Below are positions 17,212 to 43,004 of a stretch of 64,000 nucleotides of DNA, piece by piece. Position 1 is the first letter of the stretch, and every line of letters begins with the position of its first letter. The DNA lies in IMG/VR virus record IMGVR_UViG_3300042350_003419, positions 17,975 through 81,974 of that record, one strand, 5' to 3'. Position numbers and translations under genes: made by a program. The DNA comes from a virus. The notes beneath the pieces were generated by a model. That model saw only the letters and a program-made list of their open reading frames with translations. It was not told the DNA's origin and made no database searches.

Positions 17212-17236
17212 CTTTAGTGCCCTGATGCCTTATAGT
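17208..17236 (+). promoter_or_regulatory. Sigma70-type promoter at head of tRNA region
   Basis: TTGACT (17208-17213), 17-nt spacer, TATAGT (17231-17236). The -10 lies in the loop of a short inverted repeat GATGCC / GGTATC (17224-17242). It could drive tRNA-Arg(TCT). Confidence 0.6.
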
Positions 17237-17324
17237 GGTATCACGGGTGAAGGAGGTCCAAACTTCTTATAAATCCCACACCTCCCATGCCTCTCAACGA
17301 TGCACAAACAGGGAGGTTCCTTAT

Positions 17325-17969: not shown

Positions 17970-18017
17970 TTGCTACTCTGCCTATGGAGTGTTCCTCCTT
18001 GGCGGTTGTAGCATCAA

Positions 18018-18560: not shown

Positions 18561-18589
18561 TTGACAAACTTCTTAAAGTTTGTTACTAT
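18561..18589 (+). promoter_or_regulatory. Sigma70-type promoter inside tRNA cluster
   Basis: TTGACA (18561-18566), 17-nt spacer, TACTAT (18584-18589). An 8-bp inverted repeat ACAAACTT / AAGTTTGT (18564-18583) fills the spacer. Confidence 0.65.
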
Positions 18590-18602
18590 ATAAATTGTTG
18601 GA

Positions 18603-18647
18603 GGTTAAGTCCCTGTTATGTCCTTATGAGATATATTACACTTAACC
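18603..18647 (+). ncRNA. Hairpin element A preceding tRNA-Ala
   Basis: 45-nt two-helix element: outer 8-bp helix GGTTAAGT/ACTTAACC, inner 6-bp helix TATGTC/GATATA and a 7-nt loop CTTATGA. It ends 6 nt before tRNA-Ala. A second copy with paired substitutions occurs at 18762-18806, which supports selection on RNA structure. The function is unknown. Confidence 0.55.
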
Positions 18648-18653
18648 CATCTT

Positions 18654-18726
18654 GGGGAATTAACTCAGTTGGTAGAGTATCGCCTTTGCAAGGCGGGTGT
18701 CAGGAGTTCGAGTCTCCTATTCTCCA
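18654..18726 (+). tRNA. tRNA-Ala(TGC)
   Basis: Acceptor GGGGAAT/ATTCTCC; anticodon loop TTTGCAA. Confidence 0.92.
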
Positions 18727-18761
18727 TTGGAGATTTATTCTCCATATATAAAAGTGATAGA

Positions 18762-18806
18762 GCGTAAGTCCCTGTTATATCCTTATGAGGTATATCACAC
18801 TTATGC
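18762..18806 (+). ncRNA. Hairpin element B preceding tRNA-Asn
   Basis: Second 45-nt copy: outer GCGTAAGT/ACTTATGC, inner TATATC/GGTATA, identical loop CTTATGA. Relative to element A, outer pair 2 changes G-C to C-G, outer pair 3 T-A to G-T, inner pair 4 G-T to A-T and inner pair 5 T-A to T-G; all remain paired. It ends 6 nt before tRNA-Asn. Confidence 0.55.
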
Positions 18807-18812
18807 CATCAT

Positions 18813-18884
18813 TCCGAGTAGCCCGCAAGGTGCGGGAGCAAACTGTTAATTTGTTATAGGTCAGTTCGATTCTGACACTCGGAG
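18813..18884 (+). tRNA. tRNA-Asn(GTT)
   Basis: Acceptor TCCGAGT/ACTCGGA; anticodon loop CTGTTAA. Confidence 0.92.
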
Positions 18885-18909
18885 TTTTACCCTTGAAATA
18901 TGCTATTAT

Positions 18910-41879: not shown

Positions 41880-42042
41880 ACAACAAGTTAAGGAATGTAA
41901 CAAAACCTTAACGTTGTCCTCTGCCTAACCGAGACCTATGGGGAGGTTAAACACAGTCTCTCATACCCACGATGGAGGGTGTCGTGGGGAATACTTGTAC
42001 CGTTCAGTTCCCCCTGGACACATACTTACCCTTTAACGAAAA
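41880..42042 (+). promoter_or_regulatory. Structured psbA 5' leader
   Basis: The ~165-nt leader holds a long hairpin (ACAAC-aa-GTTAAGG with CCTTAAC-GTTGT, 41880-41917) and two mutually exclusive hairpins. CCCACGA/TCGTGGG (41966-41988) and GGGGAA/TTCCCC (41986-42013) share the G run at 41986-41988. This layout could switch translation of D1; no protein or ligand site is recognised. Confidence 0.5.
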
Positions 42043-42795
42043 ATGACTGCTACAATCGCTACACGTCGCCCAACTACTTCGGCGTGGAACTCATTCTGTG
42101 AATGGATTACTTCAACGAACAACCGCCTTTATGTTGGTTGGTTCGGAACTCTGATGATTCCAACGTTGCTTGCTGCAACTATTTGTTTCATCGTCGCCTT
42201 CATTGCCGCACCCCCGGTGGACATTGACGGTATTCGTGAACCTGTTGCTGGTTCACTCATGTACGGAAACAACATCATCTCTGGTGCTGTTGTTCCTTCA
42301 AGCAACGCCATTGGTCTTCACTTCTATCCCATCTGGGAAGCAGCAAGTCTTGATGAATGGCTTTATAACGGTGGACCTTTCCAACTTGTTGTATTTCACT
42401 TCCTCATTGGCATCTACTGCTATATGGGACGTGAATGGGAACTCTCATACCGTCTAGGTATGCGTCCTTGGATTATGGTTGCTTACAGTGCTCCTGTTGC
42501 TGCTGCATCTGCTGTATTCCTGGTTTATCCTTTCGGACAAGGTTCATTCTCTGATGCGATGCCTCTGGGCATCTCCGGAACATTCAACTACATGCTTGTG
42601 TTCCAGGCAGAGCACAACATCCTGATGCACCCCTTCCATATGCTTGGAGTTGCTGGTGTGTTCGGTGGTTCTCTGTTCAGTGCTATGCACGGTTCTCTTG
42701 TGACTTCTTCACTGGTTCGTGAAACCACAGAAACTGAGTCACAGAATTATGGTTATAAGTTTGGTCAAGAAGAAGAGACTTATAACATCGTGGCT
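42043..42795 (+). CDS. psbA: psbA exon 1 (photosystem II D1, residues 1-251)
   Basis: First exon of the D1 reaction-centre protein. Together with 43005-43334 it encodes 360 aa, the usual D1 length. Visible: the N-terminal helices, the Tyr-Z region, the His/Ile/Met-rich helices C and D, and the QB-side [18 protein letters not shown]. Reading through would stop at TGA 42796-42798, the first three bases of the intron. Phage D1 replaces damaged host D1 and sustains photosynthesis during infection. Confidence 0.96.
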
Positions 42796-43004
42796 TGACA
42801 GAGCGGGTCACGTTAAACTGGGTGAACTGCTGGAAACCTAAGTCCTTTATGGATATGGCAATCAGCATCCAAGTCCTAGATACATCTAGGAAAGGTTCAG
42901 AGACTACCTGAGGGATACAGTTCCCTTAATAACAGGCAAGAGCGCCCAGCACCTTTAATAGGTGAAGATATAGTCCAACCCTTAAGGAAACTTTTGGACA
43001 ATTG
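42796..43004 (+). other. Group I intron in psbA (209 bp)
   Basis: Boundaries fit group I rules. P1 pairs exon CGTGGCT with intron GGTCACG (42806-42812) with a terminal U-G at the 5' splice site. P10 pairs GAGC (42801-42804) with exon-2 GCTC. The last intron base is G. P7 pairs GACTA (42902-42906) with TAGTC (42971-42975) in the typical AGAGACTA ... GATATAGTCC context. P8 is CACC/GGTG. There is no internal ORF; the endonuclease lies downstream of exon 2, as in phage S-PM2. Confidence 0.93.

Follow-up and report, generated by a model that had tools for sequence, protein, structure and literature searches.

A covarying hairpin RNA family of 53 to 55 nt in the tRNA arrays of cyanophages

Two similar hairpins, each ending a few nucleotides before a tRNA, raise the question of whether they are tRNA-processing signals, tRNA mimics, or a new small RNA. 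They are encoded in a 64,000-nucleotide stretch (the window) of the IMG/VR record IMGVR_UViG_3300042350_003419 that is part of an 82-kb virus contig; a cyanomyovirus identity fits its tRNA array, which resembles the S-PM2 array. Both predicted hairpins exist, and each is a 55-nt unit: copy 1 lies at 18597..18651 (+ strand; GTTGGAGGTTAAGTCCCTGTTATGTCCTTATGAGATATATTACACTTAACCCATC), with a covariance search score of 77.4 bits, its sequence being in the training set, and copy 2 lies at 18756..18810 (+ strand; GATAGAGCGTAAGTCCCTGTTATATCCTTATGAGGTATATCACACTTATGCCATC), with a score of 84.2 bits. The structured core of copy 1, defined by folding and covariation, occupies 18603..18647 (+ strand), where an 8-bp outer helix (18603-18610/18640-18647) encloses a CCC/C internal loop and 2 bp, followed inward by a T.T mismatch, a 6-bp inner helix, and the loop CTTATGA. 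The outer helix of copy 2 is formed by 18762-18769/18799-18806. The compensatory changes between the copies listed in the original prediction (G-C to C-G, T-A to G-T, G-T to A-T, and T-A to T-G) are right, and one more had been overlooked (G-T to G-C, columns 19-41); copy 1 also differs from copy 2 at two 5' positions. Single-sequence folding gave z values of -2.1 (copy 1) and -3.2 (copy 2), which are weak by themselves, and the reality of the hairpins is settled by the covariation of their homologues rather than by these folds.

The tRNAs follow closely, with a gap of 5 to 6 nt where 6 nt had been predicted. Copy 1 precedes tRNA-Ala(TGC) (18653..18727, + strand; expected RNase P site near 18653/18654), and copy 2 precedes tRNA-Asn(GTT) (18812..18885, + strand). 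A sigma70-like promoter, TTGACA-17-TACTAT (18561..18589, + strand; 10/12 consensus matches), is predicted to start transcription on the first base of copy 1, while a GGAG-ATTTATT-CTCC hairpin followed by ATATATAAAA (18729..18753, + strand) stands 5' of copy 2 as a putative promoter. The string at 17219-17247, once suggested to be a diverged relative, was absent from an unfiltered covariance search of the window with E values up to 10. A sigma70-like promoter (TTGACT-17-TATAGT), with an abiF RNA and tRNA-Arg downstream of it, overlaps this string, and the copy of the string in locus L108 reads AGGTTCAC where the window reads GGTATCAC, so that the hairpin is broken. The string is rejected as a relative.

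Homologues with covariation, the test set by the original prediction for a new small RNA, were found in other phages. An exact 28-base core pattern matched at least 119 IMG/VR stretches, and this pattern, further patterns, and BLAST searches of named phages together yielded 306 copies from five named cyanomyoviruses and from IMG/VR phage contigs. These copies comprise 81 distinct sequences in 183 distinct contexts. Because the choice of patterns shapes such a set, more distant relatives are probably missing from it. Training sequences enter into the E values of the covariance models, which do not count as independent evidence. The named carriers are all Synechococcus myoviruses (S-SRM01, S-CREM1, S-RIM8 isolate KX349286, S-SZBM1, and S-RIM32), and at the sensitivity of the model the element was not found in ten related cyanomyovirus records (S-PM2, S-RSM4, S-WAM2, and others). 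It is present in both T4-like and T7-like phage contigs, the latter carrying portal, capsid, terminase, and tail genes of T7-like type. In searches of 20 and 30 records, most had a single copy; the window has two. No Rfam family matched the element at gathering or relaxed thresholds. A strict pattern scan of 84,980 genomes returned 7 scattered non-cyanobacterial matches, none convincing, plasmids gave short chance matches only, and no report of the element was found in the literature. The family is undescribed.

Across the family, the element is 53 to 55 nt long, with the consensus GATAGAG-GGU-AAGU-[CNC]-UG-[U]-UAURUC-[CUNAUGA or CUUGA]-GRYAUA-[U]-YA-[C]-ACUU-ACU-CCAUC. In the fold of this consensus, a 3x1 internal loop separates an 8-bp outer helix from 2 bp, beyond which a T.T mismatch leads to a 6-bp inner helix closed by the apical loop. 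In 42 representative sequences, 99.4% of paired cells were paired, against 88.5% in shuffles, and two-sided changes occurred in 67 cells, against a shuffled mean of 17.8 (0/500 shuffles), involving 8 pairs. The covariation score was 0.395, compared with no more than 0.053 for slid partners. Change is concentrated in the outer helix, where 7/8 pairs have changed on both sides and vary among G-U, G-C, C-G, U-A, and A-U. The G.U pairs at columns 8-50, 19-41, and 25-35 fit the tRNA strand only, which places the RNA on the same strand as the tRNAs. By compensatory change, which exceeds both the shuffled and the slid controls, the element is a structured RNA family. Among its members there is almost no variation in the inner stem, the apical loop, or the CNC/C internal loop, with the caveat that the search patterns themselves fixed much of this inner part. 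A pattern allowing a pyrimidine at column 24, and hence an altered inner stem, found only 2 stretches, read as chance matches, which argues that the inner stem is constrained. The apical loop varies at one position (T/G/C) and by a 2-nt deletion, so that it is the 5-nt CTTGA instead of 7 nt in 22/81 distinct sequences.

The surroundings of the element are far more variable. Downstream, a tRNA of one of 11 named isotypes (plus one unassigned) begins within 0 to 8 nt in 101/183 contexts; the others contain an 85- to 95-nt GTAGGA...TCCTAC RNA (28/183), an abiF RNA and then a tRNA (10/183), a ribosome site and start codon (8/183), a promoter (2/183), or other neighbors (34/183), several of which are tRNAs uncalled by ARAGORN. 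Upstream, 40/183 contexts have a TTGACN-17-TAnnnT promoter with its predicted start at or next to the first base of the element, 44/183 have the hairpin-plus-TATATAAA type (TGGAG..CTCCATATATA), and 14/183 have TAAATA, which is like the cyanophage late promoter, NATAAATA (PMC2984593). In 9 contexts, including that of S-RIM32, the element directly abuts the 3' end of an upstream tRNA. Because the neighbors vary on both sides, no particular promoter or gene belongs to the element, which is a unit independent of them. In several TTGACN promoters, the spacer is itself an inverted repeat that keeps its symmetry while differing in sequence (ACAAACTTCTTAAAGTTTGT, ACAGATTCTTATGAGTCTGT, and GACTTTCCTTAGAAAGTC), as seen at window positions 18561-18589 and upstream of the element in L034, L050, L054, L004, and L017; such a repeat is perhaps a terminator for the preceding tRNA that overlaps the following promoter.

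Other RNA-like units were observed in the same regions. A second family of recurrent small RNA units, e.g., TTGCTACTTGCGCTGGAAAGATAAACCAGAATGCCGTAGCAA (L186:729-774; also L175, L177, L054, L215, L221, L237, and others), is often located between a tRNA and the 55-nt element, and its outer stem covaries (TTGCTAC/GTAGCAA, GTTACCA/TGGTAAC, and GCAATCA/TGATTGC) around a conserved inside. The 85- to 95-nt RNA-like unit that directly follows the element in 28 contexts (GTAGGAAGTGCAACACCTCTCGCTGG...CACATAGAAATCCCTCCTACC; L007, L031, L055, L082, and others) had no Rfam family in the loci scanned. In T7-like contigs (L268, L278, L296, and L307), the element is followed by a tRNA-like minihelix, GCATAG...GGGTTCGATTCCC...CTATGC, consisting of an acceptor stem and T arm only, possibly a minimal processing substrate. 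Within the window, the tRNA-Asp/tRNA-Glu spacer at 17970-18015 (GTTGCTACTCTGCCTATGGAGTGTTCCTCCTTGGCGGTTGTAGCATC) has an unusually stable fold (z = -4.9) and shares one base with the called 3' end of tRNA-Asp. Rfam also identified a group I intron (RF00028) at 42744-42997 (97.9 bits), shortly preceded by a PhotoRC-II RNA at 41909-42002.

Presence and absence of the element can be compared directly between S-RIM8 isolates. In KX349286, the 3-nt spacer CCA that separates tRNA-Thr from tRNA-Ala has been exactly replaced by a 328-nt RNA-only insert with the element at its end, while KX349285, read base by base, has an empty site with identical flanks. In 14 further listed records, which include RefSeq duplicates and KBS-M-1A and were compared by alignment, 53% of the query was covered at 100% identity, as expected for an empty site; absence of the insert is thereby supported for 15 records, RefSeq duplicates included. 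The insert is made up of folded units: ahead of the 53-nt element it contains a 46-nt hairpin that belongs to the second recurrent family, then two hairpins in one stretch, a tRNA-like sequence, and a hairpin of 82 nt. Its junction has no target-site duplication. The element is accessory, and no other single observation speaks as strongly as the S-RIM8 pair for such RNAs being accessory functional units. Gain or loss between near-identical phages suggests an action on the host cell, perhaps as a decoy.

A possible model for such an action is found in the same arrays. The sole abiF RNA match in the window (RF03085; 17281..17317, + strand) lies 7 nt before tRNA-Arg, and the model does not match the elements. 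Like the element, the abiF RNA is a small hairpin situated a few nucleotides before a tRNA in cyanophage tRNA arrays, with a closing helix around a conserved inside; unlike the element, it has 37 nt and an unrelated sequence and inner structure. The two occur in tandem in 10 contexts and in the T7-like contig L312. Among named records, abiF RNA is present in 3/5 element-bearing and 0/10 element-free ones (Fisher P = 0.02, a value that ignores kinship and the choice of records). The association is moderate, and both RNAs may simply favor tRNA arrays. No Abi_2 toxin gene (PF07751) was detected in 25 element-bearing records, a set separate from the window's own record, so that abiF RNA is an orphan there too. 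The AbiF RNA of Clostridioides difficile neutralizes its toxin in trans through direct binding (PMC12373285), and the paper on S-CREM1 lists abiF, wcaG, manA, and glnA RNAs only (PMC9964418).

Our leading reading, which we hold tentatively and at somewhat less than even confidence, is that the element is an accessory trans-acting small RNA freed by tRNA processing, most likely a host-directed protein-binding decoy. Its transcript would be a tRNA precursor, in which the element most often comes first after the promoter. Given what is established about tRNA maturation, RNase P has to cleave at the 5' end of the downstream tRNA, which would leave a small RNA wherever transcription starts at the element. 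That cut would probably free the 3' end of the element; in copies directly preceded by a tRNA, maturation of the tRNA 3' end would probably free the 5' end. The freed RNA may be stable and act in trans, with the covarying outer helix serving as a clamp through which the invariant parts (internal loop, inner stem, and apical loop) are displayed to a protein. We consider a host protein the most likely target, probably a defense or toxin component, against which the RNA may work as a decoy or surrogate antitoxin like the adjacent abiF RNA; we prefer this role because abiF RNA, whose relatives neutralize a toxin in trans by direct contact of RNA and protein, occupies the same niche and sometimes lies back-to-back with the element. 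The family, its structure and strand, its independence of neighbors, and its accessory status are shown, whereas we infer transcription, processing, trans action, and target.

Phage precedents exist for such RNAs. Pseudo-ToxI of phage PhiTE mimics a type III antitoxin and neutralizes an abortive-infection toxin of the host (Blower et al., described in PMC5449768), and Racr RNA anti-CRISPRs are solitary repeat units that act as phage-encoded small RNA decoys (PMC10651486). Pseudo-ToxI, however, copies a known antitoxin repeat and Racrs resemble host CRISPR repeats, whereas strict pattern and plasmid scans found no host counterpart of the element, and its core had no convincing match in genome contigs under the strict pattern. 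This counts against a decoy, since a copy of a host RNA would be expected to have host homologues and the genome and plasmid scans gave none convincing; the strictness of the scan pattern, and the fact that a structural mimic need not share sequence, soften the objection. The structured phage RNAs GOLLD and ROOL, of unknown function and often near tRNA islands (PMC12286853), are multibranched, nanocage-forming RNAs of hundreds of nucleotides, in contrast to a single 55-nt hairpin. The cyanophage RNAs wcaG, manA, and PhotoRC-II were likewise found via covariation (PMC2864571), but they are cis-regulatory and lie in the 5' untranslated regions of metabolic genes, while the element has no fixed downstream gene; wcaG and PhotoRC-II RNAs are present in the window (Rfam).

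The alternative with the next best claim, which we nevertheless consider doubtful, is that the element is a cis-acting 5' leader, a structured start that guards against 5'-end decay or guides RNase P/RNase E processing downstream. Its location at a predicted transcription start in many contexts (40 + 44 + 14 of 183), the frequent start of a tRNA within 0 to 8 nt, and the copies that precede mRNAs with a ribosome site are all consistent with a leader, and a cis role is possible where the element begins an mRNA transcript. Yet most phages have a single copy despite the many tRNAs in their arrays, which is a poor fit to a signal required by every tRNA, and several copies are promoterless and abut an upstream tRNA, or stand ahead of an abiF RNA or a second promoter. 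A leader also has no need for invariant internal and apical loops, and the element moves within an RNA-only insert. The general processing signal entertained originally is unlikely on the same grounds, as about a dozen isotypes are preceded and some copies stand before mRNAs or other RNAs.

We regard it as improbable that the element is a regulatory small RNA base-pairing with phage or host mRNA via its conserved loop (UCCUUAUGAG/UCCUUGAG). The loop sequence is near invariant across families and its UCCUU partly resembles an anti-Shine-Dalgarno sequence, but one of its positions can be T, G, or C and 2 nt of it can be deleted. Furthermore, the internal loop and T.T mismatch are as conserved as the loop, which favors protein or tertiary recognition.

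A DNA-level feature, such as a recombination site, a homing target, or a miniature mobile element inserting beside tRNAs, might account for the variable neighbors and for presence or absence at one S-RIM8 site, given that tRNA arrays are prone to recombination. We find this very unlikely, since compensatory changes with G.U pairs imply selection on RNA, the element is usually single copy, the S-RIM8 junction lacks a target-site duplication, and the neighboring insert units are also folded RNAs. Mimicry of a tRNA anticodon arm, as a decoy for anticodon nucleases, hardly seems credible: the 7-nt form C-U-N-A-U-G-A resembles Ile/Met anticodon loops, with U at the U33 position and a variable wobble-like position (T/G/C), but the 5-nt CTTGA in 22/81 distinct sequences means that a 7-nt loop is not general, position 37 is always G rather than A, and the inner stem matches no tRNA of the window. 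The D and T arms are indeed absent, as first noted, and so is the acceptor arm; no tRNA was called over the elements, each of which is a single hairpin. By inspection, a hammerhead ribozyme (CTGATGA in some loops) was rejected, most loops being CTTATGA or CTTGA with no GAAA strand, as was a kink-turn, the internal loop having no tandem G.A pairs.

The trans-acting small RNA that we favor may belong to something wider. Phage tRNA arrays are usually ascribed to codon usage or tRNA replacement, and a conserved, single-copy RNA that is gained and lost indicates that they also carry other functional RNAs. It is conceivable, though we hold this more loosely than the reading of the element itself, that cyanophage tRNA arrays are libraries of accessory small RNAs, folded units placed between tRNAs, released by the tRNA-processing enzymes of the host, gained and lost as RNA-only inserts, and acting as antidefense decoys or antitoxins. 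Its members would include the element, the abiF RNA, and two or more further recurrent RNA units. The question can be tested in culture with the near-isogenic S-RIM8 isolates that carry or lack the insert and with the lytic carriers S-CREM1, S-SZBM1, and S-SRM01. If the element is a decoy, it would point to an unrecognized defense system in picocyanobacteria.
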